Source: a virus. Taken from it: 30,084 nucleotides of DNA. Of this stretch, positions 2,108-21,359 are shown piece by piece. The stretch covers positions 1 to 30,084 of the IMG/VR virus record IMGVR_UViG_3300035633_000426; one strand, written 5' to 3'. The translations under genes and the position numbers were made by a program. Within the stretch, counting starts at the first letter, position 1. Every line of letters starts with the position of its first letter. The notes beneath the pieces were generated by a model that made no database searches, was not told the origin of the DNA, and saw only the letters and a list, made by a program, of their open reading frames with translations.

Positions 2108-3496
2108 GTGCTTAAAAAGAAAAGGTGTGAGAGGTGCAACTTGGTTTTCATCCCCACGTCTGGAAATCAAAAACGCTGCTCAACCTGTGGGGATTTGCTT
2201 GCAAAGGAACGTGAGAGGAATCGCAGCAGAGCAAGAAACAACTTTAGAAAACGAGTTAGAGAGTGTTTGGTTTGCGGGAGAGAGTTCAGCACTTATTACA
2301 AAAACAAAACGCATTGCGGATCTGAAGAATGTGAAAAAGAGAGAAGAAAGCTGAATTCTGAGAACGCAGAAAGAAAAAGATCTTTAACGAGGAAAAAGGA
2401 CAGGGCTAGGAAAAGAATTTTTAACAGGGCCAATAAAATAAAGGAAATGAAAAAGCACGTTGAAAGGTTTGGTTACAAAACGCTTTCCGCCAAGGAGTTT
2501 AAAAATTGCCACAACGGTCGCGTTCTCTTGGAGTGCCCAAAAGGTCATGAGTACTGTGTCACTTATCATGGGTTCAAAGACAACGGAAACAGGTGTTTGA
2601 GATGTTTCCTTGGCAACGATTTCGTTTCGCGGCCCGAACGAAAAATGCGAGATTTCATAGAAAGGGACTTGCGAAACGTGAACGTGATTTACAACGATCG
2701 TTCAATCATAGCTCCAAAAGAATTGGACGTTTATTTTCATGATTTAAAGGTGGCGGTGGAAGTGTGCGGTTTGTATTGGCACGGGGAAGCTTCATCGGGT
2801 AAAAACAAATTTTACCATTATGACAAAATGAAAGAATGCGCGGACAAGGGAGTTCGTTTGATCACGGTTTTTGAGGATGAAGCGTGTGACAAATTTGACA
2901 TAGTGGTTTCTATAATAAAACGCGCTTTGGGTTTGAGTGACAACGAGGCGTTGGCTGGAAATTGTTTCATCAAAACTCTTGATTCAAAGACCGCCAACGA
3001 TTTTTTCAATGAAAATCACGTGAGAGGAGGATCTGATTTCGTGGTTGTTTGGGGTTTGTTTAGCGACGATGAGTTGGTGGCCGCCTTGGGTTTGTCAAAC
3101 CCTGTGAAAAAGCGTTCCAATTTGAACAATGAATTGGAGTTGAAGAGATTTTGCGAAAAGAAAAATTTTACCGTGGTTGGAGGGGCTAGAAAGTTGTTTG
3201 AGGTGGCGAAAGAGCATTGCAAAAATCATGGGATCGGTTGCGTTAAATCTTATTGTGACATGAGATACGACAACTTTTTCTCCACTGATTGTGATTTGTT
3301 GGGTTTTAAACCTGTTGGTTTTACCAAATGCGCTCCTCATTATTTTAAGAACGGAAAAAGAATTAAGAATTTTTTTTTGAATGAGAATAAAGAAGAGAGA
3401 GAATTGAATGAAATTGAGTTTGAATCGCTGGTCGGACAAGGGTATGATCGGGTGTGGGACGCCGGTCATAGAACTTATTTATATAACTTTATATAG
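2108..3496 (+). CDS. Free-standing homing endonuclease, Vsr-like (EDxHD type), zinc-finger N-terminus
   Basis: This 462-residue protein has three cysteine clusters at its N-terminus: C7/C10/C24/C27, C53/C56/C70/C75 and a CPxGHE-type finger at C143/H147/C163/C166. A very basic stretch lies around residues 78-118. The nuclease part at about 175-275 shows ELDVYF (205-210), E218-x-x-GLYWH225 and VFEDE (254-258), the pattern of Vsr-fold phage homing endonucleases such as I-Bth0305I. A conserved C-terminal domain follows (NENHVRGG, ELKRFCEKK, VVGGARKLF). It starts with GTG after AAAAGGACAACC. It shares its whole second half with the protein at 19752. It sits directly behind the intron-rich capsid gene, so a DNA target in that gene is likely but unproven. 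Confidence 0.82.
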   Translation: MLKKKRCERCNLVFIPTSGNQKRCSTCGDLLAKERERNRSRARNNFRKRVRECLVCGREFSTYYKNKTHCGSEECEKERRKLNSENAERKRSLTRKKDRARKRIFNRANKIKEMKKHVERFGYKTLSAKEFKNCHNGRVLLECPKGHEYCVTYHGFKDNGNRCLRCFLGNDFVSRPERKMRDFIERDLRNVNVIYNDRSIIAPKELDVYFHDLKVAVEVCGLYWHGEASSGKNKFYHYDKMKECADKGVRLITVFEDEACDKFDIVVSIIKRALGLSDNEALAGNCFIKTLDSKTANDFFNENHVRGGSDFVVVWGLFSDDELVAALGLSNPVKKRSNLNNELELKRFCEKKNFTVVGGARKLFEVAKEHCKNHGIGCVKSYCDMRYDNFFSTDCDLLGFKPVGFTKCAPHYFKNGKRIKNFFLNENKEERELNEIEFESLVGQGYDRVWDAGHRTYLYNFI

Positions 3497-3515
3497 GACA
3501 AGGAGGATTTGAAAA

Positions 3516-4004
3516 ATGAAAGGATACGTTCAAAACGTTTCTAAAACTTGGGCTCACGCAATGAAAAGAAACGTGGCTCCTTTAGGCAAAATTTCTTTGG
3601 AGGAGTTGTACGTTCAATATGGAGAAAAACACGACTTAGCCAGGGGCAAACAGTTTGTCAACTGGTTGAAATCGGTTAAGTTGCAGAACAGAAATAATTG
3701 GAAGATAGAGCTGAAAGACGAGGAACCAAAACCTAAGGTTGAAAAATCAAAAGAAGAGGAACCGGCGCCGCCCAAGACTCAGACTGAAATAGACAACAGC
3801 CCGTCTCCGGTTCCAACGAAAGAACTTTCAGTTGAAGACGTGGTTGGTCTGTCAGTTAGAAAAGCGAGAGAAATCGTTCCCAAGATAAACGATGAGAAGT
3901 TGTTGAAATATTCTTTGCAAGAAGCCCGTCCGCGTCCTGGCAAGGACAGCCTTTGTCAAATTTTAAGAAAAAGACTTCTTGATTTACAGACTTTTAGAAG
4001 TTAA
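3516..4004 (+). CDS. Small structural-region protein of unknown function
   Basis: This 162-residue protein has a strong ribosome binding site (AAGGAGGA). The N-terminal 70 residues look like a small folded domain (KISLEELYVQYGEKHDL, FVNWLKSVKL). A charged, proline-rich linker at about 72-105 (EEPKPKVEKSKEEEPAPP) follows, then a short C-terminal helical domain (SVEDVVGLSVRKAREIVPKI). I do not recognise the family. Its place between capsid and fibre genes suggests a virion or head-assembly accessory role, which is inference from position. Confidence 0.7.
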   Translation: MKGYVQNVSKTWAHAMKRNVAPLGKISLEELYVQYGEKHDLARGKQFVNWLKSVKLQNRNNWKIELKDEEPKPKVEKSKEEEPAPPKTQTEIDNSPSPVPTKELSVEDVVGLSVRKAREIVPKINDEKLLKYSLQEARPRPGKDSLCQILRKRLLDLQTFRS

Positions 4005-4039
4005 CGTTCTATACTTGGTCCAGGAGGTAATTCAATAAA

Positions 4040-4288
4040 ATGCCAGAAACATATGACAGAAACTTAATGTTGGCGAGGTTTTACGCCACCACTGCTCACA
4101 TAGGAAAAAAGGGGTTCAATCCTGAGGTGGTTTTGTATTACAACTCCGATGAAGATTTGATTCAGATAGATGAAACTTTCGGTGGGAAAACTTTTAGACA
4201 GACGGTTTCTGGTACGAAGTCGGGGGGAGGAGTTATAGATCAAACTATCGATTACTCTGTTCATTATTCTTCTTGGTCCGAGGTATAA
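4040..4288 (+). CDS. Small protein of unknown function
   Basis: This 82-residue protein is preceded by CCAGGAGGT, about ten bases before the ATG. It is mostly predicted beta strand (VVLYYNSDEDLIQIDETF, TIDYSVHYSSW), with no signal peptide or membrane segment. It lies 27 bases before the first fibre gene and is probably co-transcribed with it. A small virion or fibre-attachment protein is possible; nothing in the sequence proves it. Confidence 0.7.
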   Translation: MPETYDRNLMLARFYATTAHIGKKGFNPEVVLYYNSDEDLIQIDETFGGKTFRQTVSGTKSGGGVIDQTIDYSVHYSSWSEV

Positions 4289-4315
4289 AAATACATAGAA
4301 TAAGGGAGGAGTAAC

Positions 4316-6889
4316 ATGCCTTCGTTTGATTATAATCCGTTTACCAGAAAACTGGACATGGTCGGAGCCGCGACGTCGTCTGGAGTGAACGATCACCCAA
4401 GAAAACACCACATAGACGGGGTCGTCGATCATTACGGGGTTGCTGGGGCGACAGAAGACAACTTTGTTTCGTTTGATTCAAACGGCCTTCCAAAAGATTC
4501 TGGGTATTCACACTCAGACCTTTCTTCTTATTGGGACAGAACCGGCACGACCCTAACTCCAAAAAACGCCAATGACAACATAGATTACGGAGCCGGAACC
4601 ATTTCTGGAACCGGTGACATTTATTGTGATGAGTTGTTCACTTCTGGCGGAAGCGCGCACGTCGGAGATTCCGTCATAGCCAGCAGTTCCAGGGGACAAG
4701 TCATTGTGAACAGGATGACTTGCAGACAGGACGACTACACCCTAAGATCCAATTTTGGAAATTCTTGGACTGCCAGAGACAGCTCCAGGTTCTGGAACGG
4801 GGTGGCCATGACGTCTGACGGAGTCACTCAAGTGGCTTGCGTTAGCAATTCCGTGTTGTACAAATCGACCGACTCTGGAAAGACTTGGTCGACTCTCACG
4901 GTTGCGGCGTTGCAGTGGTACTCTTTGGCGATGTCGGCTGACGGCAGGGTCATTGCTGGGACTGTGGTGGGCGGTCAAACGCAAGTGTCCGTGGATCATG
5001 GAGAGACTTTCGTTGGTTACGGTCCAGTCCTTGGGGTTCCTTACGGGATGGCAATGTCTTCAAGCGGTAGAAGAATGGCTGTTTTCAATGGTTTGGGGCA
5101 CATTTACGTTTCCAATGACTTCGGGCAAACTTGGAACCACACAGGTCCGTCTGAGGCTTGGTATGGAATTTGGATGTCAGCTTCCGGGGATTACGTCACC
5201 GCTGGCGCCTTCGGAGGTAAATTGTACGTTTCAAGCGACGGAGGACAATCTTGGTCAGCAAAAGACTCCGACAGAAACTGGAAACCGGTTGGCATGTCAG
5301 ACGACGGTTCCATTCAAGCTGCGGCGGTGTGGGGAGGCAACATATACGTTTCCACTGATTATGGCGAGAATTGGTCAGCGAAAGGCGAAAGTCGTCAGTG
5401 GAACGATTTGAAGTTGTCTTACGACGGAAAAATTCAAATCGCTTGCGCGGCCACTGGTGAAGTCAGCGTGTCAGAGGATTATGGAGACAATTGGTCTGAC
5501 GTGACGGCTCCAGGAGAAGTCCTTTCGTTTTTGGCAACCACTCCCACTTTTTCCAAAATAACCGGAACTTCTTGGAACAAGCAAATTTACACGTCATATT
5601 CAGACGTTGACGTTGAAAACGACGTGAATTTTGAAGGCAGCGTCGTCATAACCAACAATTTGACAATAGACAGCAACTCCGTAGATGAGTTTTCCACTGA
5701 CGGAGCTTTTACAGACAATTCCGATTCCGCCATACCAACAGAAAAGGCTGTCAAGACTTACGTTGACACAACTGTCAGCGGAGCTGCAGGAGCTTCGGCA
5801 CACGCAGATCTCACCGGTCTTGACGCTGACGATCACACTCAGTACTTCATAACAACTGGAGCAAGGCCGGCGGAATACGTCAATATAGCGGGCAACGTGG
5901 ATGACTCTCCAATTACAAAAGAAGGTTTGCAACTGCGCGTTTCTGCGGCCAATTTAACTGACAACTTCACTCCCGGTCTTAGAGACAAAGGATCTGCCAC
6001 TTCGTTCGGGATTCCCACCATGATTGGTGACAATTCCATTACAATAACTGACGCTTGCACGGTTTACATTGATGGATCACCAACCGCTGGAGCCAACATG
6101 TCGATCACCAATCCTTGGGCTTTTTACGTGAACGCGGGAGATTCATATTTTGGCGGGGCGCTGTCAGTGAATGGGGATTTGGATTTAAATGACAACAACG
6201 TTGAAGACGTAAACGGAATGTTCACGAAGTACAACGCTGTGTTGGTCAGCAACGACACTGGATCCACTCTTGAGAGAGGGACTCCTGTTTACGTCAACGG
6301 TCTTGTTGGAACCGTTCCATCAGTGGCCGCTTGCGACAACACGGATTGTGACAAGATGCCGTGCATTGGCTTGGTGAGAGCTAACATAGCAAACGGCGAC
6401 GACGGATACGTGGTGCGCTTTGGAAGATTGTTTATGGACACTTCTTCGTTTTCTGGATCTCCTTTGGGAAGCAGAGTTTATGTGACCAGCAGTGGCACTT
6501 TGACCACGGTGGAGCCCACTTTTGGGAGCGTTCAGCGCATTGGGATGTTTACAAAATTAGGATCTGGTACCACCGGAAGGGTGTTCATAAGTTCAAGAGG
6601 AAGGGAAAGCATATTTTCCGCTGAAGCGGAGCACCCAATTCTGAGAATGGGTCTTGATGACGGTCACAGAAAAATATCTTTCTGTGATTATTACAACAAT
6701 GAAGTCGCTTCCATAGACGATGAAGGAAATTTAACCATATCTGGCTCAATGAGTGGTTTATACGTTGACTATGAACCAACTCCGACTTCTTCTGGAGTTC
6801 AAGGTCAGAAGTATTTTGGCTCTGGGTATTTGTATGAGTGCGTAGACACCAACACGTGGGTAAGGCACGCGGTGGCCACTTCTTGGTAA
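4316..6889 (+). CDS. Virion fibre/adhesin with Asp-box beta-propeller
   Basis: This is an 857-residue protein. A fibre-like N-terminus contains WDRTGTTLTP and ISGTGDIYCDELFTSGG. Residues about 140-415 then form a repeat array with six Asp boxes (STDSGKTW, SVDHGETF, SNDFGQTW, SSDGGQSW, STDYGENW, SEDYGDNW) spaced near 40 residues, the signature of sialidase or sortilin-type beta-propellers. It continues with fibre motifs (AIPTEKAVKTYVD, HADLTGLDADDHTQY), a beta-rich domain starting ERGTPVYVNG and a C-terminal module (ILRMGLDDGHRK onward). Asp boxes are structural turns and do not show catalysis. The ribosome binding site GGGAGGAG precedes the ATG. It probably binds a surface glycan or mucin; whether it sits on head or tail is open. 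Confidence 0.75.
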   Translation: MPSFDYNPFTRKLDMVGAATSSGVNDHPRKHHIDGVVDHYGVAGATEDNFVSFDSNGLPKDSGYSHSDLSSYWDRTGTTLTPKNANDNIDYGAGTISGTGDIYCDELFTSGGSAHVGDSVIASSSRGQVIVNRMTCRQDDYTLRSNFGNSWTARDSSRFWNGVAMTSDGVTQVACVSNSVLYKSTDSGKTWSTLTVAALQWYSLAMSADGRVIAGTVVGGQTQVSVDHGETFVGYGPVLGVPYGMAMSSSGRRMAVFNGLGHIYVSNDFGQTWNHTGPSEAWYGIWMSASGDYVTAGAFGGKLYVSSDGGQSWSAKDSDRNWKPVGMSDDGSIQAAAVWGGNIYVSTDYGENWSAKGESRQWNDLKLSYDGKIQIACAATGEVSVSEDYGDNWSDVTAPGEVLSFLATTPTFSKITGTSWNKQIYTSYSDVDVENDVNFEGSVVITNNLTIDSNSVDEFSTDGAFTDNSDSAIPTEKAVKTYVDTTVSGAAGASAHADLTGLDADDHTQYFITTGARPAEYVNIAGNVDDSPITKEGLQLRVSAANLTDNFTPGLRDKGSATSFGIPTMIGDNSITITDACTVYIDGSPTAGANMSITNPWAFYVNAGDSYFGGALSVNGDLDLNDNNVEDVNGMFTKYNAVLVSNDTGSTLERGTPVYVNGLVGTVPSVAACDNTDCDKMPCIGLVRANIANGDDGYVVRFGRLFMDTSSFSGSPLGSRVYVTSSGTLTTVEPTFGSVQRIGMFTKLGSGTTGRVFISSRGRESIFSAEAEHPILRMGLDDGHRKISFCDYYNNEVASIDDEGNLTISGSMSGLYVDYEPTPTSSGVQGQKYFGSGYLYECVDTNTWVRHAVATSW

Positions 6890-6920
6890 TTAAAAAACAC
6901 AATTAAGGCAGGTAATTAAA

Positions 6921-9900
6921 ATGGCTAACGAAATCAAAGGTCTAATAAACATAACCACTGGGGAGGAAATAAACGACGCTGACGTTAGGTACTCAGTGTT
7001 GTATGACGGTTATGGCCCCCCAACCGGCACTGTGTCAGGCACCAATTCAAGAAGAAACGCAGTGCCTGGTGATTATTATTACGACAGGGACACTGGAGAC
7101 GTGTACAAAATGTCTCCAGACGTGGTCGTTAATTACTGCGTGTGGGACCCAGACAACTCTGACATGGATGAGTATTTTTTTGTGTCCGGAGGCCTAAATG
7201 CTGTAAAATACGGCAATGGGGTTGGATCAATAAAAGGTTCTGTCGGCGTGTCTTCAGGAAAGTGGTATTGGGAATTAGATCCTGCTGCGGCTTATGGCTA
7301 CGGGTGGCACATAGGAATTGGGTCTGACAGCACTGGTTTTGATGGCGTAGATTTTTATTATGAAACCGATGGTAAAAGTTATTTTGGGATTAATGGAAAT
7401 AAATATGACGATGGCGATAGTACGGCGTTTGGAGACACTTTTACTGGAACAAACATTATAAGCGTTGCCCTTGACATGGACAACGGCAAGATATGGTGGG
7501 CAAAAGACGGAGTTTGGCAGGCGTCTGGAGATCCGGCCAATGGAACAAATGAAGCTTTTAGCGGGATAACAGGCACGATTTACCCAATGGCAAATGAATA
7601 CTTTGGAAGCGCTCAGTTGCGGGCCAATTTTGGTCAGTCGGCGTTCAGTCATTCCGTGCCGGCTGGTTTTAATTCAGGGTTGTACCAAGCTTCTGATGAA
7701 GGCATTTGGAGCGTTGTGACTTCTGTTTCTGGGTCTTTGCAGGAAGCGATAGACAGAATTCCAGTTTGGCACGACGGGGCCGGCACTCCATCTGGAACCT
7801 TAGGCGCTTACAAAGATTATTATCTTGACAGGGACGATGGAGACATTTTCAAAAAAGAAAGATACGTTACCCATTCATGCACTTGGAACCCAGACGACAA
7901 AGACGCTGGAATAGATTTGTCAAATGGAAATTTAACTTGTTCTTCCAACGACCTTTTTACCAATTCTGTGAGAGCGACAGATGGGGTGTCCAGTGGCAAA
8001 TGGTATTGGGAAATCACTTATACTCAAGAAGACTTGGTCGGCACTTCTTATTTAGGAATTGCCAATGGTTCCGCAGCAATGTCTCAACTATGCGGTTGGA
8101 ATGCAAACAGTTGGGGTTATTCTGAAACTGACGGTAAAATTTATTTTAACAGCTCTGGATACGATTATGGTGACACCTATTCCACTGACGACGTCATAGG
8201 AATTGCGTTGGACATGGACAGTGGTAAGGTTTGGTTTGCAAAGAACGGAGTTTGGCAAGGAGGCGGTGATCCAGAAACAGGCGCTGGGGAAGCGTTTTCT
8301 GGTTTAACTGGCACTATGTATCCATGCGCCGCGCCGCACAGGACAGACGACGTGTTTACAGCGAATTTTGGAGCCACTGGTTTTGCTTACCCCGCTCCAG
8401 CTGGATTTGACACGTTGACGTCATGGTTTTCAGGTTGGTTTAGAAAATGGAATCCTGATGGTAGATACCACACCAAGGAATATATAAACAACACCATTAG
8501 CACTCTTTCTGGTACAGTTCATTTGTGGGATAGAGTTGGAACTGCTTTAACACCAAGAACCGATGGAGATGACATAGATTACAAATATGGCGATATAAAA
8601 GGGTCTGGTAATGTTATAGCTGGCGGTTATTCCAATGCAAATGATTCAATATTGACGGTGCAAGGTGACATTGGTTTAAGAAAACTCAATTCAATTCCTA
8701 CAACTGACAGTGATTTTTGGAAGTTGTATGTGAGAGAATATGGAACTAGCGTTCCTGTTGTTTTGGACGAATGGCAGATAGCTCATTTGGAAGTATCCAA
8801 TGCATCTAGTGGTTATTCTTGTTGTTTTAATGATCCTTATTACGTTGTTGTTGGTGGTTATACTGTTAATCTAAGTAATACATGGGTAAGAGTGTGGTAC
8901 ACTACTGCTTTAAATGGTAATTGGCAATATAATGATGTTTATTCATCTGGTAGATGTTACCCTACTGCTATTGGACATGATGGCAGTAATTATTTCATAT
9001 GTAGTAGAGTAATCCCTAATGATGGAAATCCTTTTGTTTATCAAGCAAAAGTTTTTTATTCTGATACATTAGACGGTACTTGGAATAGTAGTACTATTTA
9101 TAACAGCGATCTTGCTTCTTTTACTCCATATGGAATGATTTATGACAGTGACAATGGGCTTTACGTAGTTGCCGGCACTTATGCTGGAGTTGAAGCTGTT
9201 TATTGTTATTATTCTTCAACTTTATCTGGCACGTGGGGTTCAACTCGTGTTGACAGTGGAGGAGGAAACTTCGGCTCCGGTCGCGATCTTTTGTATGACG
9301 GAACCAACTATGTAATATGCGGCGGACAAAATTTTGATCGGCAAGGATACAAAAGTTCTTGTGATATCTGGTATTCAACGTCAGTTAGTGGTTCATGGTC
9401 TACCAAACAGATTGAATACGACGGTATTAATGATATAAGGGGGACTTCGATAGCATATAATGGTTCTAATCAATACGTCATTGTTGGAGAAGGCGCCAAC
9501 CCGTATGGTCCAGTTAAAGTATGGTATTCATCCTCTTTATCAGAAGGTTGGGTGGACAAAGAAATAGCTTCTGGAGGACATGGTTATTCTATAATTCATG
9601 ATGGCGCCAGTTATATAGTTGTTGGAGATTCTGGTGGTGGTAATGACTCATATCCAAAAGCATGGTTTACAAGCGATCCTAGTGGAAGTTGGTCTAGTGT
9701 TTTAATGGATTCCTTGTATTCTGATGGTAATGCGTATTGTATTTGTTATGATGATGACCATACGTTTTTTGCTTCTGGTTGTTGTACGTCTGATGAAATA
9801 TCTAGTGCTAAGGTGTTTTATTCTACAACAATGTCTGGTTCTTGGAGCTGTGGAAAAGAGTCCTCAGTGTTTGCATTGGATGATTTAGGCAATGAATATG

Positions 9901-10463
9901 ATCTTGTTACTGGAAGTGGCATAGATCATGGTAATTTGTCTGGACTAACAGATGACGATCATCCACAATATCACACCGATGCCCGAGGTGACGCAAGGTA
10001 CTACACAGAAACAGAATTAGACAACGGTCAGTTGGACAATAGGTATTACACTGAATCTGAAGTTGATGATTTAATTACCACTGTGTCAGGAGCGATTGAT
10101 CGTTCATTAGAATCTAAAGAAATGACTATATTTGAACCTGACCAGGTCAACACTCAAGTGCCGATGTTTCACGTCAATGACAGAATTTATCCAAACGGCG
10201 TAGACGTGATTGCGGTGTCGATTCAGTTGTCAGAAGGAACTTCTTACACTATGGGGTTTGAAGAGTGGTCAGGGGATCCGTTGTCATTCAGCTCCACGAT
10301 TGAAGACGTTTCAACCACGGCTTCTGGAAGTTACGCTGAGGTTGAGACAACCGACATAGACGACTCAACCATAGCGTCTGGCAATTGGGTGTTTTTGGAC
10401 ATTCCTTCCACTGACGTGGATTGGGTGGTGTCAACTTGCGTGTTTAGGAAAAAACATTCTTAA
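6921..10463 (+). CDS. Large fibre/adhesin with two SPRY-like lectin domains and a propeller
   Basis: This is a 1180-residue protein. A unit of a short linker (YDGxGxPxGT, YYxDRDxGD) plus a SPRY/concanavalin-like domain occurs twice, at about residues 25-250 and 283-496. Shared signatures are SSGKWYWE, ALDMDxGKxWxAKxGVWQ, EAFSGxTGTxYP and ANFG. Residues about 535-575 repeat the WDRxGTxLTP module of the preceding fibre. Residues about 620-980 form a second propeller of repeating VWYSSSLSEGW/VFYSTTMSGSW blades. Then come the DDDHPQYHTDARGDARYY and RYYTESEVDDL spacers and a beta-rich C-terminus. The propeller-coding part is richer in T at third positions than the SPRY part, suggesting separate origins. 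It is probably a carbohydrate-binding virion fibre. Confidence 0.75.
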   Translation: MANEIKGLINITTGEEINDADVRYSVLYDGYGPPTGTVSGTNSRRNAVPGDYYYDRDTGDVYKMSPDVVVNYCVWDPDNSDMDEYFFVSGGLNAVKYGNGVGSIKGSVGVSSGKWYWELDPAAAYGYGWHIGIGSDSTGFDGVDFYYETDGKSYFGINGNKYDDGDSTAFGDTFTGTNIISVALDMDNGKIWWAKDGVWQASGDPANGTNEAFSGITGTIYPMANEYFGSAQLRANFGQSAFSHSVPAGFNSGLYQASDEGIWSVVTSVSGSLQEAIDRIPVWHDGAGTPSGTLGAYKDYYLDRDDGDIFKKERYVTHSCTWNPDDKDAGIDLSNGNLTCSSNDLFTNSVRATDGVSSGKWYWEITYTQEDLVGTSYLGIANGSAAMSQLCGWNANSWGYSETDGKIYFNSSGYDYGDTYSTDDVIGIALDMDSGKVWFAKNGVWQGGGDPETGAGEAFSGLTGTMYPCAAPHRTDDVFTANFGATGFAYPAPAGFDTLTSWFSGWFRKWNPDGRYHTKEYINNTISTLSGTVHLWDRVGTALTPRTDGDDIDYKYGDIKGSGNVIAGGYSNANDSILTVQGDIGLRKLNSIPTTDSDFWKLYVREYGTSVPVVLDEWQIAHLEVSNASSGYSCCFNDPYYVVVGGYTVNLSNTWVRVWYTTALNGNWQYNDVYSSGRCYPTAIGHDGSNYFICSRVIPNDGNPFVYQAKVFYSDTLDGTWNSSTIYNSDLASFTPYGMIYDSDNGLYVVAGTYAGVEAVYCYYSSTLSGTWGSTRVDSGGGNFGSGRDLLYDGTNYVICGGQNFDRQGYKSSCDIWYSTSVSGSWSTKQIEYDGINDIRGTSIAYNGSNQYVIVGEGANPYGPVKVWYSSSLSEGWVDKEIASGGHGYSIIHDGASYIVVGDSGGGNDSYPKAWFTSDPSGSWSSVLMDSLYSDGNAYCICYDDDHTFFASGCCTSDEISSAKVFYSTTMSGSWSCGKESSVFALDDLGNEYDLVTGSGIDHGNLSGLTDDDHPQYHTDARGDARYYTETELDNGQLDNRYYTESEVDDLITTVSGAIDRSLESKEMTIFEPDQVNTQVPMFHVNDRIYPNGVDVIAVSIQLSEGTSYTMGFEEWSGDPLSFSSTIEDVSTTASGSYAEVETTDIDDSTIASGNWVFLDIPSTDVDWVVSTCVFRKKHS

Positions 10464-10476
10464 TCGAGGTTTTGTC

Positions 10477-11070: not shown

Positions 11071-11229
11071 ACACAAACGTTTAGTGTGGGGCTTAGACAT
11101 TATGCTTAATTTTATCACGCGGATAACAACATTGATGTATTAGATGATTTGCCGGGGAAGCAATGATTTTTGCATTTGGGATAAAATAACCGGTAGATTT
11201 AAAACGATTGATTAAGGAGGTAAAGGGAC
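11071..11229 (+). other. Intergenic gap, no gene seen
   Basis: This 159-base AT-rich stretch holds no plausible reading frame beyond about 20 codons. It ends in a strong ribosome binding site (AAGGAGGT) for the next gene. A GGATAAAAT at about 11179-11187 resembles a -10 hexamer, but I see no convincing -35 at the right distance. Confidence 0.5.
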
Positions 11230-11625
11230 ATGTTTGGTTTTTGGAAAAATAGGCATGAAGAAGAAGAATTTGAAATAGGAAGGGACGAAGCTTGGTTTGC
11301 CAATCGTAAAAGAGAGTATGATGAGGGTCAGTATGAGGGTATGGAAGTTAAGAGAAGAGACAGAACTCACATTGACTCTGTGTTGGCTCAGAAGGCTGAA
11401 AGTGACCAGGCCAAGGACGCCATTGCCATTCAGGCTTTGCAGCTTGCTGTTGAGACGGCAAACATGGTGGCCAAACAGTCTATTAGACATACAGATGTAG
11501 CGTCGGACAGGAAATTTAACGTTGAAGAGCAGGATCTGATTGTTGAAGAAATTTTGAAGGACGAACAAGCCAAAACTGCTCTTGCTAAAATTGTCGCTGA
11601 ATTTGTTCGAGGTGAAATAAAATAA
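11230..11625 (+). CDS. Small helical protein, first of a tandem paralogous pair
   Basis: This 131-residue, highly charged, mostly helical protein has the strong site AAGGAGGT upstream. It shares with the next gene, in the same order, the segments RDEAWFANRKREYDE, RDRTH, ETANMVAKQSIRH and a C-terminal VEEILKDE. The N-terminus carries an extra MFGFWKNRHEEEEF. I do not recognise the family. A small oligomeric virion protein or fibre-associated factor fits the location. Confidence 0.75.
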   Translation: MFGFWKNRHEEEEFEIGRDEAWFANRKREYDEGQYEGMEVKRRDRTHIDSVLAQKAESDQAKDAIAIQALQLAVETANMVAKQSIRHTDVASDRKFNVEEQDLIVEEILKDEQAKTALAKIVAEFVRGEIK

Positions 11626-12047: not shown

Positions 12048-12053
12048 ATCCGG

Positions 12054-12078
12054 TGGTGCGTCGTTTAACGGCGCGCCA
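12054..12078 (+). promoter_or_regulatory. Stem-loop in leader of the fibre gene
   Basis: TGGTGCGTCG (12054-12063) pairs with CGGCGCGCCA (12069-12078) through ten base pairs, two of them G-U, around a five-base loop. No T run follows, so a terminator is unlikely. It may protect the 5' end of an mRNA starting nearby, or modulate translation of the weakly served ATG at 12103. Confidence 0.45.
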
Positions 12079-12102
12079 CAAACGTATAAGGGTCAACAAC
12101 GC

Positions 12103-13788: not shown

Positions 13789-13807
13789 TTATGAAAGGAG
13801 AATTAAA

Positions 13808-14329
13808 ATGGCTGTAATACAATTTACTTTAGCTAACGAAGCCATTGAGGCAAATAGAAAGTTTGAAGGGGACATTGTTGGGATTCATCCTTGGGGAGTG
13901 TCTTCTGGTGGCAGAAAGACTCGTAAACAATATTTGTTTGTGCCTATAGATTTTGGTGATTTATTTAAAACATGGCAAGATTGTAGGGCTGTATTTAGAC
14001 ATTGTTTATATGACGGAAAGACAGACATTAATGTAGATCCAATTGGCGAGAGTAGAATTTCATTGGCTAAAAATAGATTTAGAGTGACTTTTTCTGACAT
14101 TGACGTTATGGCAAAAGCTAAAGGGGTGGTTATTGATTGGAAGAGGGTTAGAGACGAAGAAGACGACTATCAACCGTTGTTGGATAATAAAATAGTTTTG
14201 GATTATAAAGACATATATGATAAGGCAGTTGGTGTTAAATTGGATAAGTCAGCGATAGAGTGTCTTAGAAATTCCATAGGAGTTTCTGGAGAAGAAATTA
14301 AGAGAGAATTTGTTGGGAGGCAGGAATAA
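13808..14329 (+). CDS. Unknown protein between two fibre genes
   Basis: This 173-residue protein has a clear ribosome binding site (GAAAGGAGAA). It appears to be a mixed alpha/beta globular protein, with no membrane segment or known motif that I can see (GDIVGIHPWGVSSGG, FVPIDFGDLFKTW, RFRVTFSDIDVMAKAKG). It ends two bases before the next fibre gene, so the two are probably translated together. It could be a fibre chaperone or attachment protein; this is inference from position only. Confidence 0.65.
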   Translation: MAVIQFTLANEAIEANRKFEGDIVGIHPWGVSSGGRKTRKQYLFVPIDFGDLFKTWQDCRAVFRHCLYDGKTDINVDPIGESRISLAKNRFRVTFSDIDVMAKAKGVVIDWKRVRDEEDDYQPLLDNKIVLDYKDIYDKAVGVKLDKSAIECLRNSIGVSGEEIKREFVGRQE

Positions 14330-14331
14330 AA

Positions 14332-15384
14332 ATGTCTTCTAGTCGCAGGACGGGCACCAACGAAAACGTCAGCACGGGCGGCAACAACACCCGTGACTAC
14401 GACCTCACGAACAGCGAACTGACGAACTGGGAGCAGGCCACGGACAACGATTTGGTGACGGCGGAACAGAGCGAGGTACTTGAGATATATGACGATGCGG
14501 CGAGTTTTGATGATTATGTAACCATAGGCGGGGCGACTACCAGTAGCAGTTATTTTAGGATTATTCGGCCTGCTGATGGTGAGGGGCATGACGGTACGCC
14601 GAACAACGGGGTTCACTTCTCAAGCAGTGGTTCAATTCCAATATTCCAGATATATTGCGACTATTTTTCGCTGCAAGATGTTATTTTAACGCTAACATAC
14701 AACAGTACACACTGGCGGCGTACTGCATGGTTTGGTGGGGATTGTGATTACGGTGATATGACTGGTGTTATAGTGGCTAACTCTAACAACTCTGGCAGCG
14801 GCGGTTACTCAGGGTTCGGTATGGAAACAGATGCCGGGAAGACGTGTTATTTTATAAATTGCTTATCGTATAATGTCGAGTCTCAGGGCTTCTTTCAACA
14901 TTCTGGCACTGGATATTTCTACAACTGCACGTCCTACAGTCCTGGCGGATATTGCTTTTATCAAAACGGAGGAACAGGTGTAGCCAAAAACTGTATAGCA
15001 GTTGATGGCAGTGATGGAGACTGGTATGGCACATGGTCAAAAACCACGTGTACCGCAGAGGGTGCGTCTGTTACGTTTGTTAACGCGGCGGGGGGAGACT
15101 GTCATCTTTCCAGTGGTGACAGCACGGCCAAGGACCAGGGCACAGACCTCTCCTCAGACGGCACCTATGCTTTCGATGACGATATAGACGGTGACACGAG
15201 AAGCGGCTCATGGGACATTGGGTTTGACGAGTATGTGGCGGCCGGGCCTTCTATGGACATGAAGGTTAATGTGGGAGGTGTCTGGAAGGATGTTGAAGAG
15301 GTAAAAATAAATGTAGGTGGTGCTTGGAAAGATGTGTCAGAAATGAAAATGAATATAGGAGATGCTTGGAAAACCGTATTTTAA
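14332..15384 (+). CDS. Beta-helix adhesin with C-terminal GGxWKDV repeats
   Basis: This is a 350-residue protein. Its body shows the irregular short-strand pattern of a right-handed beta-helix (YFINCLSYNVESQGFF, GYFYNCTSYSPGGYCF, KNCIAVDG). The closing segment GSWDIGFDEY is common in such polysaccharide-binding or -degrading proteins. The last 45 residues hold three tandem 14-residue repeats (MKVNVGGVWKDVEE, VKINVGGAWKDVSE, MKMNIGDAWKTVF). The body is clearly more GC-rich, with different third-position use from its neighbours, while the repeat tail returns to the local composition. That suggests an acquired tip grafted onto a resident anchor. The start follows GGGAGGCAGGA. Confidence 0.7.
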   Translation: MSSSRRTGTNENVSTGGNNTRDYDLTNSELTNWEQATDNDLVTAEQSEVLEIYDDAASFDDYVTIGGATTSSSYFRIIRPADGEGHDGTPNNGVHFSSSGSIPIFQIYCDYFSLQDVILTLTYNSTHWRRTAWFGGDCDYGDMTGVIVANSNNSGSGGYSGFGMETDAGKTCYFINCLSYNVESQGFFQHSGTGYFYNCTSYSPGGYCFYQNGGTGVAKNCIAVDGSDGDWYGTWSKTTCTAEGASVTFVNAAGGDCHLSSGDSTAKDQGTDLSSDGTYAFDDDIDGDTRSGSWDIGFDEYVAAGPSMDMKVNVGGVWKDVEEVKINVGGAWKDVSEMKMNIGDAWKTVF

Positions 15385-15401
15385 TTTACAGGGGAAATAA
15401 A

Positions 15402-15935
15402 ATGATAAGAGTAGACAAGTTAGAAGAATTTCCTATAGTGGCTACAGTTGTGGATGATGACCTTGGATCATTGGTTACTGGTCAAACTGTATATTATGAG
15501 ATACGAGACGCCAACGTTGACGTTGCTCTTGTTCCTCCTATTTCTGGCATTTTGTCAGAATCCAGTTATGAGCCCGGAGTGTATAGAACCGTGGAAACCA
15601 TACCTACAGACGGGGAATACATAATATACACAACATGCAGTGGGTACATTTCTGGAACTGAGGACGTGATTGTCAATCCAGAGTCAATTTATGATTTAAC
15701 AAAACAAAACAGGCAGTGCAACATAAGTGTGGAGGACGTTGTCAGAACCAATGCCGTTCCCACGGCGTCACAATTGTCAAGAAACGTTCCATTGAATAAA
15801 ACAGATTACATTGTGACTTTAATAAAAAGTGACAACGACAGTGATTGGGACGGCACAACCGTGAGTGGAGTGACATACGCTCATTATGAGACAACGTTAA
15901 GTAACCTTCCTTATAAGATGGGAGGACCAACATAA
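15402..15935 (+). CDS. Beta-rich structural protein, unknown
   Basis: This 177-residue protein is started at the ATG at 15402, preceded by AGGGGAAA, because a longer in-frame extension would overlap the previous gene. The N-terminal hundred residues resemble an immunoglobulin-like beta-sandwich (PIVATVVDDDLGSLVTGQTVYYEI, YEPGVYRTVETIPTDGEYI). The C-terminal part contains NISVEDVVRTNAVPT. It overlaps the next small gene by one base (TAATG). It is probably a virion protein of the neck or fibre base. Confidence 0.65.
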   Translation: MIRVDKLEEFPIVATVVDDDLGSLVTGQTVYYEIRDANVDVALVPPISGILSESSYEPGVYRTVETIPTDGEYIIYTTCSGYISGTEDVIVNPESIYDLTKQNRQCNISVEDVVRTNAVPTASQLSRNVPLNKTDYIVTLIKSDNDSDWDGTTVSGVTYAHYETTLSNLPYKMGGPT

Positions 15936-16105
15936 TGAATATAAAATTGATTGTTTCTGCTGGGTACAATTTGTGGGAAGAATATTCACAGGATATAGTT
16001 GTATCTACTAATGTTCCAGAAGTAGATGCGGATGTAGTCGGGGAAATGACGTTTGAAGTTATAGACGTGGGAACCCCCAGGATAAAGGCATACACTGATT
16101 CTTAA
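15935..16105 (+). CDS. Small protein (56 aa), unknown
   Basis: The ATG overlaps the stop of the preceding gene by one base (TAATG), typical of translational coupling. The 56-residue product (MNIKLIVSAGYNLWEEYSQD... to KAYTDS) is predicted mainly beta strand, with no membrane segment. It fills the only space between its neighbours with no other frame competing and is followed after 22 bases by the next start. Function is unknown. Confidence 0.65.
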   Translation: MNIKLIVSAGYNLWEEYSQDIVVSTNVPEVDADVVGEMTFEVIDVGTPRIKAYTDS

Positions 16106-16127
16106 TACAAAATAGGGAGAGATTGAT

Positions 16128-17054
16128 ATGATTCAATTATCAATACAAGTTAATGACATTTCGGTTGTGATGCAGATTTACAATCAAATACAAATACAAA
16201 GAAGTGAATCCGAAACCGGAGCGTTCACAACTATTTCTGGGGCAGGCCCGATAATTTTGGTTTCTGGTCAATCAGAATACACAGAACAGGATCCAACGGG
16301 CACTTCAAGTCATTGGTATAGATCAAGATATTACTCAACGTCCACTGGTTATGGAAGTTCCTGGTCATCCCCTGTTCTTGGACAACTGGGTGATTTATTT
16401 TACGATCCGTTGTTTCCGGAAGAGCCTTGTTATGGCACAACCGTTGATCAAAGCGTGGTGGACAGAATACGCATTTACATAGGAGATCCTCTTTCATTGA
16501 GGAGGGAGTTTGGGGAGGATGCTTCTTCTTCTGTGCATGAGGATGGAAAAACTTATGAACTTGATCACAAAGGATGGCCTGTAAGCATTTACATGAACAA
16601 TCAATCTTACAACACAAGCAACAATCCTTCAGTTCACGGTTATAAGTATTTGACTTTTGACGAAGACATTGATTTGACTTACACAGTGATTTCTGGCTGT
16701 CCTCCAAATCAAACAACAACCACTTATGGATTCGACGTTTGGTATTATTCATTCAGACATTCTGATTGTGAAATAATGAGGGCGTACGATTCATGCCCTC
16801 CACCACCGCCGTTGACCTCTGCAACGGCTACAAGTCAGCATTACATGCTACAAACAGCCATAGACTTGCTGATGATGGAGAATTGGGAAGATGCTATAGA
16901 GGATGGTGCAATTGTTAGAGATGAGGGTTCGTATTATTCACAGGAACCTGGATTTAGATTTAGAGATGATTTATTGGGAAAACTTAGAAAAATGTTGGAC
17001 GACGCAATAAAGGTTAGTGTGTTTAGTGACATTCAGGGAGTATTAATCGACTAA
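16128..17054 (+). CDS. Neck/head-tail connector candidate with Fn3-like N-terminus
   Basis: This is a 308-residue protein. Residues about 1-90 have the strand pattern of a fibronectin-type fold (IQIQRSESETGAFTTI, SHWYRSRYYSTSTGYGSSWS). After a linker, VVDRIRIYIGDP and a helical C-terminus (TAIDLLMMENWEDAIEDGAIVR, FRFRDDLLGKLRKMLDDAI) resemble head-tail connector proteins. A PPPPP stretch lies near residue 226. It is followed by two small genes of neck type, which supports a connector role. The ribosome binding site is AGGGAGAG. The call rests on pattern and gene order. Confidence 0.55.
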   Translation: MIQLSIQVNDISVVMQIYNQIQIQRSESETGAFTTISGAGPIILVSGQSEYTEQDPTGTSSHWYRSRYYSTSTGYGSSWSSPVLGQLGDLFYDPLFPEEPCYGTTVDQSVVDRIRIYIGDPLSLRREFGEDASSSVHEDGKTYELDHKGWPVSIYMNNQSYNTSNNPSVHGYKYLTFDEDIDLTYTVISGCPPNQTTTTYGFDVWYYSFRHSDCEIMRAYDSCPPPPPLTSATATSQHYMLQTAIDLLMMENWEDAIEDGAIVRDEGSYYSQEPGFRFRDDLLGKLRKMLDDAIKVSVFSDIQGVLID

Positions 17055-17069
17055 TGTGTAGAGGTAGTT

Positions 17070-17669
17070 ATGGTAAGAGACAGAATAAGTGTCAAAACAA
17101 AGGAAAGGCACAAAAGAAGAATACAAGACGTTGTCAAAAGTCTTAGCAGAAAGGTGGTTGTGTACAGGCAGCCAACAAAAGCCGAATGTTACAATTGTTA
17201 CTATGACAAGATGACGGATAGATCCACCGGAAAGTGCAAATGGACTCCTGTTCAAGCTTTGGCTAAGCAGGCAGAGTGGGAAGCTCTTGGTTATTCCACC
17301 ACAAGGTACAAGTATTTTTTGAAGGGCCGATGCCCGATATGTTACGGCAAGGGTTACATAGAGACGCATCGCCGAGTGAACGTTGACTGCATGGTTATTT
17401 GGAACCCAACCAACAGGTCTTATGGAAACGAGTCTTTGTACACTCCTGCTGGGTCAGAGGGTTCCACTGACGTTAGACTGAAAACGGATCCAAAACATTT
17501 TGATTTGTTTAAAGCTTCTTCCAAAATGATAATAGATGGAGTGGAATGTAAGTTGGCCAAGGCTCCAGCTTTGAGGGGGTTGGGGGTTCAAGCGGTGTTG
17601 ATCGTGGATGCTTTCACAGCTGACAAACCATCCGCCAGCAGCGGGGAGGTTGTTAAAGATTACAGATGA
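17070..17669 (+). CDS. Head-closure-like protein with zinc-binding cysteines
   Basis: This 199-residue protein has a basic N-terminus. Two CxxC pairs (C40/C43 and C88/C91) are placed to hold one zinc ion, with CPICYGKGYIE at the second. The C-terminal half is beta-rich. Its size, its place after the connector candidate, and the overlap (ATGA) with the next gene fit a head-closure or neck protein. A zinc knuckle in such a protein is known in some phages but is not diagnostic. Confidence 0.55.
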   Translation: MVRDRISVKTKERHKRRIQDVVKSLSRKVVVYRQPTKAECYNCYYDKMTDRSTGKCKWTPVQALAKQAEWEALGYSTTRYKYFLKGRCPICYGKGYIETHRRVNVDCMVIWNPTNRSYGNESLYTPAGSEGSTDVRLKTDPKHFDLFKASSKMIIDGVECKLAKAPALRGLGVQAVLIVDAFTADKPSASSGEVVKDYR

Positions 17670-18274
17670 TTATAGATCCAAGAAAAGAGAGACTGAAAAG
17701 AGATGTTAAGTTTGAAATTCGCAATTCTTTGGTAAAATTGTTGGAGAACAAAATAGTTCCAAGAGTCATAGACATTATTATGGATGAATACAATTCTCAG
17801 CTGAACGGAGTGGTTACGGTTAGCAGTGAATTGGCTCCGGAACATTTCATGTCTGAGTTTTATGACAGATTGAAATCTTTTGATTTTGTAAAAGATCGGG
17901 GCAGAGTTGTGACGTTTAGCTGTCCTGACATGGAAAATTTTGATTTTTCTGGAGATCTTGAATTTATACAAACTGTTTTAGAAGGAATTGTTGGAACTCA
18001 CGTTGAGGTTAGCAGCAAATATTACAACGTAATGTTTGCTTCAGACGTTGTAGATCGTCAAGAGACAACTGATAGAAAACCGTATTTATTGATGTTGACG
18101 GACGAAATACGTCTTTGGGAAAATAGATTGGGAAAAAAGTTCAGAATATTTGAATTTTCCAACTCTTCTCCCAAGGACATATTTAGCGAAGCTGAAAAAT
18201 TTGTTGAGGACAATTTGGATGAATGGATAGATGAGGCTTCTGATTCATGTTTAAATAAGATAAGTAATGGATAA
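17666..18274 (+). CDS. Neck/tail-completion candidate, unknown family
   Basis: This 202-residue protein starts within the stop of the preceding gene (ATGA overlap). The N-terminal amphipathic helix (RKERLKRDVKFEIRNSLVKLL) and the following alpha/beta region could suit an HK97 gp10-like tail-completion protein, but I see no decisive motif. The acidic C-terminus is helical (IFSEAEKFVEDNLDEWIDEA). The call rests on size, coupling and position between connector and terminator candidates. Confidence 0.5.
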   Translation: MIIDPRKERLKRDVKFEIRNSLVKLLENKIVPRVIDIIMDEYNSQLNGVVTVSSELAPEHFMSEFYDRLKSFDFVKDRGRVVTFSCPDMENFDFSGDLEFIQTVLEGIVGTHVEVSSKYYNVMFASDVVDRQETTDRKPYLLMLTDEIRLWENRLGKKFRIFEFSNSSPKDIFSEAEKFVEDNLDEWIDEASDSCLNKISNG

Positions 18275-18277
18275 TTC

Positions 18278-18832
18278 ATGATTAACTGGAAATTTAAACC
18301 GGCGGACATAATTTTGGTTCACGATTCAAGGTGGTTGATTGGCAGGGCAATCAAGTGGGTTTTAAATTTGTTTCAAAAAGACGAGGTTTATTTCAGCCAC
18401 GCGTTGATGGCTTGCGATGAAAGAATTGGCATAGAGGCAGGAGGTTTTCCTGGAGAAATAAGGGAAATAGATCTGTTGGATAAATTAACTAACTGTAACT
18501 CTTACATGATTTTGAGAAGAACCGATTTAACTGACGGCCAGAGAGAGTTAATAGTTAATAAAGCAAGGAAATGTTTAGGCCAGAGTTATGGTTACATCCG
18601 TCTGTTTGCTCAATTGTTTGATCAAGCGTTTGGCACAAACAGATTCACAAGACTGACTGGGCATTGCAGGAGACACATTTGTTCGACGTTTGTGTCTTGG
18701 TCATATTACGTGATTTGCAAAATAGAATTCAACGCGTTGAAATGGTTTTCTGTGGAACCAGATGATTTTGAAGACGACTACTTAGTGAACACAAATTTTT
18801 ACACATGTTCCATTTGGAGAAGTGACATATAA
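18278..18832 (+). CDS. Permuted papain-like (YiiX/NlpC-P60 type) cysteine peptidase
   Basis: This is a 184-residue protein. KPADIILVHDSRW (residues 7-19) and FSHALMA (39-45) carry the opening strand and the likely catalytic His41. HICSTFVSW (133-141) gives Cys135 as the likely nucleophile. The order His before Cys is that of circularly permuted papain-fold enzymes such as YiiX. These hydrolyse amide or thioester bonds, and some act on peptidoglycan or acyl groups. There is no signal peptide. Its position among neck and tail genes suggests a virion-associated enzyme or a structural use of the fold. Start and stop overlap neighbours closely (TAATG with the next gene). Confidence 0.65.
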   Translation: MINWKFKPADIILVHDSRWLIGRAIKWVLNLFQKDEVYFSHALMACDERIGIEAGGFPGEIREIDLLDKLTNCNSYMILRRTDLTDGQRELIVNKARKCLGQSYGYIRLFAQLFDQAFGTNRFTRLTGHCRRHICSTFVSWSYYVICKIEFNALKWFSVEPDDFEDDYLVNTNFYTCSIWRSDI

Positions 18833-19713
18833 TGAGCTATGAAATGAAAAGTTTGAGAAAAGAAGATCTTAGCGTGTTCATGTACATGCGTGATTTTGTG
18901 CTGGCAGATTTCATAGAACTGGAGGAACAGGTGTCGTTGGATTATTTAGAGGGAGTGTCGGATCCTTCTTGCGGTAGTTACGTTTACGAAGCTCTTTCTA
19001 ACATGATTCCCAGCCCCACTGAAAGAGGAAGAGGTTGGGTGTGTTTTGACACTATATCAGGCACTAATAATTATTGTGTTGGGGATTTGCCTGTTAGAGA
19101 ACAGTCCAATAGAGTCACGGTTTATGACAACAACTTAAATGTAGTGAATGAAAATCAATACATGATAGATTACATAGATGGAAGGATAGTCACTGACGGA
19201 ACTTGTTCTCCTGCCTATGTGGATTATTACTGGCATTACGTTAGCTTGGTTGATGAATGGTCTGTGTTGGAGGCCGCAAGTCCTCCTGTGGTTGTTATAG
19301 ACATGAATGCCACGGACAAGATTGGGTATCAGCTTGGCGGGGGGAAGAAAATAATTAGAAAAGTAAACATACACGTATTTGCTTCTGACACGGCTGAGAG
19401 AAATGATTTAATGGAAACCATTTATGATGGGTTGTATGAAAAAAGCTGTTTGTTGCACAGCTTTCCAAATGGGACTCCGTTGGATTATGACGGAACTTTT
19501 TACGGTAGGAGAAACAACCCTAACAAAGACGAGACTTTGTTTGATCGTTCCGTTGTCAATGGGGTTAGCAAGCTGGCGTTTGAAAACGTGAGCGCAAGAA
19601 CAGTGAACTTGCCAGCGTTGATGTCGAGGGGAACAAATGAGATAATGCTTTCCGATTTAAATGCGTATAGGGCTAGAGTGTCTTTTAATTTAGTGAGTTA
19701 CACAAGTTATTAG
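18832..19713 (+). CDS. Tail terminator/completion candidate
   Basis: This 293-residue protein starts at the TAATG overlap with the previous gene. It contains a mixed alpha/beta part (KIIRKVNIHVFASDTAERNDLM, IYDGLYEKS) resembling the strand-helix core of tail terminator proteins. A variable N-terminal half (SNRVTVYDNNLNVV, YIDGRIVTDGT) has the look of a beta-sandwich. It is the last gene before the homing endonuclease and the tail tube candidate, which is where a terminator usually lies. The call is moderate, based on order and pattern. Confidence 0.5.
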   Translation: MSYEMKSLRKEDLSVFMYMRDFVLADFIELEEQVSLDYLEGVSDPSCGSYVYEALSNMIPSPTERGRGWVCFDTISGTNNYCVGDLPVREQSNRVTVYDNNLNVVNENQYMIDYIDGRIVTDGTCSPAYVDYYWHYVSLVDEWSVLEAASPPVVVIDMNATDKIGYQLGGGKKIIRKVNIHVFASDTAERNDLMETIYDGLYEKSCLLHSFPNGTPLDYDGTFYGRRNNPNKDETLFDRSVVNGVSKLAFENVSARTVNLPALMSRGTNEIMLSDLNAYRARVSFNLVSYTSY

Positions 19714-19751
19714 GTTGTGGTTTTCATTGATTTGAAACCGGGAAGGAAGAT

Positions 19752-21359
19752 ATGGGCAGAAGACGTACGGTAGAAGATGTGAGGAAGTACATAGAAGACG
19801 AAGGTTACGTTTTAATCGACAAAGAATACTGTAACGCTCGAGCTAAGTTGACTTTAATTTGTCCAAATGGACATGAATGCAAAATTAGTTTTGACAAATG
19901 GATGGCTGGAAGAAGATGTTTGTGCGAATCTGGAAAGAACAGGCTCGACATTGTTTTTATTGAGAGAGAGTTTTCAAAGCGCGGCTATAAATTATTGTCA
20001 AAAAATTACAAAAACAGGAAGAAGTTGGTTTACCTTTGTCCAAATGGGCATAAACACTCCATACGATGGGATCATTTTAAAAGAGGGCACGGATGCCCAT
20101 ATTGTGCCGGAAAGCCAGTCATTGATTTGGATTCAGTTAAAAATTCTTTCGCGAAAGAGGGTTATGAGTTGTTGGACAGACGGTATGTCAACAGTTCCAA
20201 AAAATTGAATTACGTTTGTCCTAATGGACACGAACACAGCGTTAGTTGGAGAAATTGGAACGCAGGGCACAGATGTCCAGAGTGCTCCCCAAACATGAAG
20301 AAAGACATTGAATTCATTGGAAAGGAATTGTCCAAAGAAGGTTATTCATTAATGTCTTCAGAATACTCCAATCACAATCAAAAACTGCATGCGGTTTGTC
20401 CAAACGGACACGACTGTTTTGTTACTTGGAACAATTGGAGCAACAACAATTCTCGTTGCGTTGAATGCACTGAGTGGGGTTCTTCTTGTCAGGAGAGAGA
20501 GATCATAGAATTTTTAAAACTGGATTGTGGACGTGAGATTATAGAGCGTGACAGGAATTTGATAAAACCATACGAGCTTGACGTTGTGATTCCAGAGTCA
20601 AATCTTGCAATAGAATATTGTGGGTTGTATTGGCATTCGGATCGGGCGGGCAAAAACAAAACATATCACCTGGACAAATTGAATTTGTGTAATTCAGTTG
20701 GGTACAGATTGATAACCGTGTTTGAAGACGAATGGGTTTTCAACAAAAAAGTGGTCAAATCAAGATTGAGGAAATTGTTGAACGTGGAAAAAGGCGAGAA
20801 AGTGCTCGCAGAAAAGTGTCATGTAGAGGAAATAACTGACGGAGTTGCTGAAAAGTTTTGCAACGACAATCATTTGCAAGGATATGGAATCAACGCCGCC
20901 GTAAAAATCGGTTTGTTCCATGAAAATGAGTTGGTCAGCGCAATGACTTTTTCAAAACAGACCATGGAAAATGAGACGGATTTTGATAGAAAGCTTGATT
21001 GGAAGCTCCACAGGTTTTGTTCAAAAACAAATTTCATGGTTGTTGGAGGAGCTTACAAGTTGTTGAAACATTTTGAAAACAATTACAAATGGAGGCGCGT
21101 GCGAAGTTACGTTGACAGACGATGGTCGTCAGGAGACGAACACGACAAGTTGAATTTTTTGTTAGTTGGTTTTACCGGACCGAATTGTTGGTACGTCAAG
21201 AACCAAAAAAGGGTTCGCTGGCTTAATTTTAGAAAAAAAGAAGACGGTTCGGTTTGTTTGGATGAGTGGGGAATTAAAAAGTCCCAGGGTTGGTCAAGAA
21301 TTTGGGACTGTGGAAACGCGAAATTTGACAAGACAAACAATAAACTAACCTCTTTATAA
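19752..21359 (+). CDS. Free-standing homing endonuclease, Vsr-like (EDxHD type), with four zinc-finger repeats
   Basis: This 535-residue protein has four tandem repeats of about 57 residues in its first 240. Each has a helix, EGYxLLxxxYxN, CPNGHE/K and a closing C-x-C or CxxC (about 8-60, 66-118, 125-178, 185-239). These are treble-clef-like fingers that probably read DNA. The nuclease part has ELDVVI (275-280), E288-x-x-GLYWH295 and VFEDEW (323-328). The C-terminal domain (CNDNHLQGYG, LHRFCSKTNFMVVGGAYKLL) matches that of the protein at 2108. The ribosome binding site is GGGAAGGAAG. It lies 159 bases upstream of the intron-bearing tail gene, a likely target by position. Confidence 0.82.
   Translation: MGRRRTVEDVRKYIEDEGYVLIDKEYCNARAKLTLICPNGHECKISFDKWMAGRRCLCESGKNRLDIVFIEREFSKRGYKLLSKNYKNRKKLVYLCPNGHKHSIRWDHFKRGHGCPYCAGKPVIDLDSVKNSFAKEGYELLDRRYVNSSKKLNYVCPNGHEHSVSWRNWNAGHRCPECSPNMKKDIEFIGKELSKEGYSLMSSEYSNHNQKLHAVCPNGHDCFVTWNNWSNNNSRCVECTEWGSSCQEREIIEFLKLDCGREIIERDRNLIKPYELDVVIPESNLAIEYCGLYWHSDRAGKNKTYHLDKLNLCNSVGYRLITVFEDEWVFNKKVVKSRLRKLLNVEKGEKVLAEKCHVEEITDGVAEKFCNDNHLQGYGINAAVKIGLFHENELVSAMTFSKQTMENETDFDRKLDWKLHRFCSKTNFMVVGGAYKLLKHFENNYKWRRVRSYVDRRWSSGDEHDKLNFLLVGFTGPNCWYVKNQKRVRWLNFRKKEDGSVCLDEWGIKKSQGWSRIWDCGNAKFDKTNNKLTSL

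Follow-up and report, generated by a model that had tools for sequence, protein, structure and literature searches.

Group I introns and free-standing EDxHD nucleases with Mom-like domains at the capsid and tail-module genes of a virus contig

Intron content of the two genes

We analyzed a virus contig of 30,084 bases (IMG/VR record IMGVR_UViG_3300035633_000426; hereafter, the window), in which a capsid gene and a tail-module gene are each split by several group I introns and each adjoined by a related free-standing EDxHD nuclease gene (Table 1). A search of the whole window with the Rfam model RF00028 returned six group I introns, all on the + strand (34–85 bits; 3/6 above the gathering score), and the intron ends in both genes were placed by spliced protein-to-DNA alignment against intronless relatives. 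Every placed intron has a U before its 5' splice site and a terminal G, in keeping with the Rfam assignment to group I, with splicing itself being predicted, and the joined exons encode intact proteins of 355 amino acids (aa) for the capsid gene and 535 aa for the tail-module gene. The capsid assignment is backed by similarity to 6wkk, a Gp27 major capsid protein (E = 8e-16). The name 'tail-module' is a guess based on synteny (the gene lies ahead of a long tape-measure-like open reading frame [ORF]); its protein has no family or PDB structure match and no matching isolate phage.

Table 1 Features of the capsid and tail-module loci (window coordinates)
Feature	Position	Strand	Basis or remark
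Fold-back assembly artefact, outside intron A	1..62	.	inverted copy of 193-254
Capsid intron A, 3' part, group I, ORF-less	63..203	+	complete 243 nt in L001 6666-6908
Capsid exon A/B	204..232	+	29 nt
Capsid intron B, group I	233..958	+	Rfam and spliced alignment
LAGLIDADG-type ORF in intron B, 163 aa	330..821	+	profile matches and relatives
Capsid exon B/C	959..998	+	40 nt
Capsid intron C, group I, ORF-less, 254 nt	999..1252	+	Rfam and spliced alignment
Last capsid exon (major capsid protein)	1253..2042	+	match to 6wkk and joined exons
Capsid-side free-standing EDxHD nuclease, Mom-like C-terminus, 462 aa	2108..3496	+	PHROG, 3r3p, structure model
Tail-side free-standing EDxHD nuclease, zinc-binding repeats, Mom-like C-terminus, 535 aa	19752..21359	+	PHROG, 3r3p, structure model
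Tail-module gene, first exon	21519..21628	+	110 nt
Intron D, group I, ORF-less, 277 nt	21629..21905	+	Rfam and spliced alignment
Tail-module exon D/E	21906..21929	+	24 nt
Intron E, group I, 1089 nt	21930..23018	+	Rfam and spliced alignment
LAGLIDADG_2 homing endonuclease ORF in intron E, 293 aa	22037..22918	+	LAGLIDADG_2 E=3.5e-26
Tail-module exon E/F	23019..23039	+	21 nt
Intron F, group I, ORF-less, 284 nt	23040..23323	+	Rfam and spliced alignment
Tail-module gene, last exon	23324..24776	+	joined exons

The insertion points are as tightly packed in these conserved virion genes as the original prediction from this DNA had supposed, with sites A, B, and C falling inside 69 nucleotides (nt) of capsid exon and sites D, E, and F inside 45 nt of tail-module exon. 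That prediction also held that each gene has ORF-less introns, which we found (A and C; D and F), and described a mirror arrangement with a single LAGLIDADG intron per gene. This is correct for the tail-module gene (intron E) and wrong for the capsid gene, because the overlapping contig 3300034152_000987 (L001; window 63-10039, 6 mismatches, 99.94% identity) reveals, in its upstream sequence, a fourth capsid intron (Z, 1074 nt) that encodes a 311-aa LAGLIDADG ORF with both LAGLIDADG_3 and Hom_end matches above the cut-off. With Z and B, the LAGLIDADG introns of the capsid gene number two, besides the two ORF-less ones, and the symmetry is only approximate. The ORF of intron B has a weak LAGLIDADG match (LAGLIDADG_3 E = 0.03; phrog_5046 E = 4e-7); same-site copies are conserved in five relatives, with a ratio of nonsynonymous to synonymous substitution rates (dN/dS) well below 1.

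The miscount arose because the window is truncated at a fold-back artefact. Positions 1-62 match the inverted sequence of 193-254 at 61/62 bases, and 30053-30084 is an inverted copy of 29873-29904, so both contig ends are artefacts of this kind, consisting of short inverted copies of nearby sequence. The 5' artefact truncates intron A, which is genuine only from about base 63, and removes intron Z. A second overlapping contig, 3300034152_000748 (L081), covers window 15337-30057 at 99.99% identity.

Nuclease lineages and their slots

The capsid gene is followed after 65 nt by one nuclease gene and the tail-module gene is preceded by its relative (35–36% identity over the shared part), both ORFs being intact, so that the placement of two Vsr-like endonucleases in the original prediction was borne out. 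Both proteins match PHROG 559/3339 (HNH/homing endonuclease; best E 1e-106), a family that carries the Hef-like homing endonuclease annotation in isolate phages, and both match 3r3p, the structure of I-Bth0305I, which is the only solved EDxHD homing nuclease (E = 7e-4 and 1.5e-4 with single sequences, 5e-7 with a profile). EDxHD membership rests on this homology of the catalytic domain. Candidate active-site columns of acidic and histidine residues (E.CG.YWH, FEDE) are invariant in both clades. AlphaFold models (mean predicted local distance difference test [pLDDT] 80.5 and 83.0) show the same architecture in both proteins: a zinc-binding-like region at the N-terminus is followed by the nuclease and then by a GNAT domain at the C-terminus, for which phage Mu Mom is the best PDB match in either model. 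The Mom-like family phrog_1384 also matches the tail-side nuclease (1.5e-6).

The comparison set comprised more than 100 related loci, all on metagenomic contigs, whose nucleases are 36–54% identical to the two in the window, and it is from those relatives that we infer how the window's elements behave. In a nuclease tree of 32 relatives, all 18 capsid-side sequences are separated from all 11 tail-side sequences (support 100/100), showing that each lineage keeps to its own slot. These two locus-faithful clades, both ending in a Mom-like GNAT domain, are what is new here. The nuclease is an optional gene between two conserved genes, absent in some relatives and cleanly inserted in others (L035 vs L026, L072 vs L238, and L135 vs L158), as is typical of free-standing homing genes.

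Two further observations concern the capsid slot. An extra ORF of 263–269 aa lies between the capsid and EDxHD genes of L246 (G011), L013, L020, and L032, and is an HNH nuclease in L020, the copy checked. The capsid-side nuclease of L250 (G013) was considered to be frameshifted, a call that was rejected, as its reading frame is kept across a deletion of 207 nt that sets it apart from the near-identical G012 copy; the gene is possibly decaying.

The C-terminal GNAT fold, Mom-like in both nucleases, together with the phrog_1384 match, brings up a role other than homing: these proteins may be restriction-like exclusion effectors, with the Mom-like domain marking the phage's own DNA and the nuclease attacking host or rival phage DNA, as is predicted for Mom-restriction endonuclease fusions in jumbo phages (PMC7824862). 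We find this improbable, given that each lineage is confined to one slot and is optional there, as homing genes would be, and given the Hef-like annotation of the family.

Intron sites with and without a nuclease

Intron-dense genes with flanking free-standing nucleases are often taken as cases of cooperation, and the original prediction likewise suggested collaborative homing. Under this scheme, the EDxHD nuclease would cut its intronless neighbor at the insertion site, repair would copy in the ORF-less intron along with the nuclease, and the intron would protect its own copy. The location fits, because a free-standing nuclease adjoins an intron-bearing gene at both loci, and both nuclease families that were thought to serve each gene are present. 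The evidence from relatives does not support the scheme, however. Empty targets are found in nuclease-bearing genomes (in relatives including G011 and G012, i.e., beside enzymes other than the window's own), and LAGLIDADG introns, which would be the cognate mobile forms, occupy all four sites that are ORF-less in the window: site A in G011, site C in L013/L015, site D in L138 and L149, and site F in L152. Intron F and its L152 counterpart are 88% identical in their 5' parts. Within the genome, the introns are mosaics of one another (C vs A 86%, C vs B 87%, C vs D 80%), and a tree of intron 3' ends proved too mosaic for clear descent by site or genome. A further site-C intron, in L108, was proposed and rejected, as its second intron lies at another site (W of EECGW) and site C is empty.

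Presence and absence of nucleases and introns vary largely independently among these relatives. Using 83 dereplicated capsid loci, 22 of them with a nuclease after the capsid gene, we found the nuclease beside 5/10 intron-bearing and 17/73 intronless genes (p = 0.12; P = 0.09 on the tree); the neighbor is thus an intronless capsid gene in 17/22 nuclease-bearing clusters. Seven intronless tail genes are adjoined by the tail-side nuclease (L011, L112, L116, L135, L137, L144, and L173).

Natural allele pairs, in which near-identical phages have the same nuclease with or without an intron, allow cooperation to be tested, and so far they favor independent turnover. The tail-side nuclease is 100% shared by the near-identical G010 and G011 (L164/L173), of which G010 has intron E and G011 has all sites empty, with divergence that begins ~10 nt before the E site and continues onward. 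The nuclease region of G013 and G012 (L130/L167) is 99.9% shared and only G013 has the ORF-less intron D, implying that this intron was recently gained or lost; its gain or loss in a nuclease-bearing background is in line with collaborative homing. Mismatches between these two are concentrated in the ~12 nt before the intron and the ~25 nt after it. The D and E sites are identical in L135, which has the nuclease, and L127, which lacks it. At the capsid locus, L244 has the nuclease but no intron C, and L044 has intron C but no nuclease; in mid-gene, their capsid sequences agree at ~98%. They differ at 24 sites in -783..-555 and at 16 in -105..0 of the capsid gene, against 7 in the intervening 450 nt. 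Divergence is found beside C and in the last 105 nt by the nuclease slot, as two separate footprints. These footprints and the identical D and E sites speak indirectly against cleavage by the nuclease at the intron insertion points. In L048/L058, exon 1 and intron B are 99% shared, whereas the first half of the nuclease is only 89% identical.

A homing sweep of the L164/L173 nuclease was first suggested by a 2.3-kilobase (kb) stretch of 100% identity that includes the nuclease amid ~80% identical surroundings. It was dropped, because longer contigs showed the two phages to be nearly the same along their whole length, with the divergent segments as exceptions. A comparison of L246 (G011; reverse complement, ~11.2-14.0 kb) with G010 shows a 2.8 kb block of ~80% identity in otherwise near-identical phages; the replaced block lies just before the tail-side nuclease. 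In L250 (G013), four introns split the capsid gene (474-4950) at different sites; one of the four, of 280 nt, lacks an ORF, and nucleases adjoin both the capsid and the tail genes.

Probable independent movement and comparison with known systems

Taken together, we consider it probable that the two conserved virion genes serve as landing sites for selfish elements of two kinds, each moving largely independently of the other. Group I introns would insert at a small number of conserved codons and be spread by LAGLIDADG nucleases that introns at the same sites encode, and introns A, C, D, and F, which lack an ORF, may be forms that have lost their LAGLIDADG gene or that borrow one in trans. The EDxHD nucleases form two locus-faithful lineages, each with an intergenic slot of its own (behind the capsid stop or ahead of the tail-module start), which they most likely enter by intronless homing of their own, presumably cutting near the slot.

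A related possibility is an island of homing endonuclease genes (HEGs), in which elements with separate targets hitch-hike on each other's conversion tracts and so accumulate without a shared cut site. Such islands have been described (PMC10448857), both nucleases and introns co-occur in the same genomes here, and the capsid slot of some phages holds the additional HNH gene. Single elements have nevertheless moved without their neighbor and with short flanks in L244/L044, G010/G011, and G013/G012, which makes the island model a doubtful, if conceivable, account; it overlaps with independent movement, and only the frequency of joint transfer differs between the two.

Four points weigh against independent movement, and the first two of them speak for collaborative homing. 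First, tail introns are enriched beside the nuclease: it adjoins 5/7 intron-bearing but only 5/43 intronless tail genes (p = 0.002; P = 0.006 in comparison with traits simulated along the tree). Second, all ORF-less introns seen sit in nuclease-adjacent genes (4/4 genes, two lineages, p = 0.25). Third, an ORF-less intron at the H site has no LAGLIDADG-bearing counterpart among the relatives compared. Fourth, should the Mom-like domain shield the phage's own DNA, a nuclease next to an empty target would do its own genome no harm, which would weaken the arguments from empty and identical sites; given this potential self-protection, we regard those arguments as strong but not conclusive.

These association tests were picked after the data were seen and use small samples. 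The tail association drops to p = 0.047 once near-copies are pooled and L138, whose nuclease is degenerate, no longer counts as nuclease-bearing. Moreover, in the 22 genomes in which both loci could be read, the tail introns are equally associated with the capsid-side nuclease, at a distance of many kilobases (p = 0.010), and each nuclease tends to occur with the other (p = 0.011), which suggests that the association is not local and that it reflects element-rich lineages rather than a local partnership. Mobilization of the ORF-less introns by the free-standing nuclease, as envisaged in the original prediction, is weakened, and we judge collaborative homing unlikely. Less likely still is a self-protecting version, in which the Mom-like DNA-marking domain would let the phage keep an uncut target, and the EDxHD nuclease would have partly taken over the mobility of the neighboring introns at both virion genes so that their LAGLIDADG genes decay. 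Regardless of this, the locus-faithful lineages with a Mom-like domain raise the testable question of whether homing nucleases can protect their own genome.

The arrangement is real, and it is an unusually dense example of an already known kind. Collaborative homing of the nuclease F-CphI with the psbA intron of cyanophage S-PM2, and that in T7-like phages, likewise pairs a free-standing nuclease with an adjacent gene that contains introns, ORF-less ones among them. There, however, cleavage of the intronless gene by the nuclease has been demonstrated, and self-cleavage is blocked by the intron (PMC6083498, PMC3984707). In the relatives studied here, nucleases stand beside empty sites, and the same sites are filled by LAGLIDADG introns. 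Another parallel is Vibrio phage ICP1, with its tape-measure and terL loci and HEG islands, where a gene has three introns, the middle one usually HEG-bearing, the HEG content of fixed splice sites turns over, and a free-standing HEG lies by a gene with an ORF-less intron (PMC10448857). Independent turnover was put forward there as an alternative to collaborative homing (PMC10448857). The ICP1 nucleases are of the HNH-3 and T5orf172 types, whereas ours are LAGLIDADG and EDxHD-Mom; our loci also have more insertion sites, and their free-standing nucleases belong to two locus-faithful lineages.

Cluster J mycobacteriophages also have group I introns in capsid (with HEG) and tail (ORF-less) genes, which share sequence, and hold many free-standing nucleases (PMC3706429), but there is one intron per gene and the free-standing nucleases are HNH. 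Three group I introns in one virion gene are known from orf142 (tail tube protein) of the staphylococcal phage Twort, as cited in PMC11878797; this is a different phage group, and the present case adds a four-intron capsid gene and a nuclease beside each gene. With I-Bth0305I and the Hef-like phage nucleases, the EDxHD proteins share the 3r3p sequence match, PHROG 559/3339, and matches annotated as Hef-like, yet they are free-standing and have a zinc-binding N-terminus and a Mom-like GNAT C-terminus, whereas 3r3p contains the catalytic domain only.

Four matches in genome collections fall in unrelated metagenome-assembled genomes, so no host is assignable. Elsewhere in the window, a weak match to the ribosomal S15 leader (11577-11616; 25.4 bits, below the cut-off of 39.5) probably occurred by chance.

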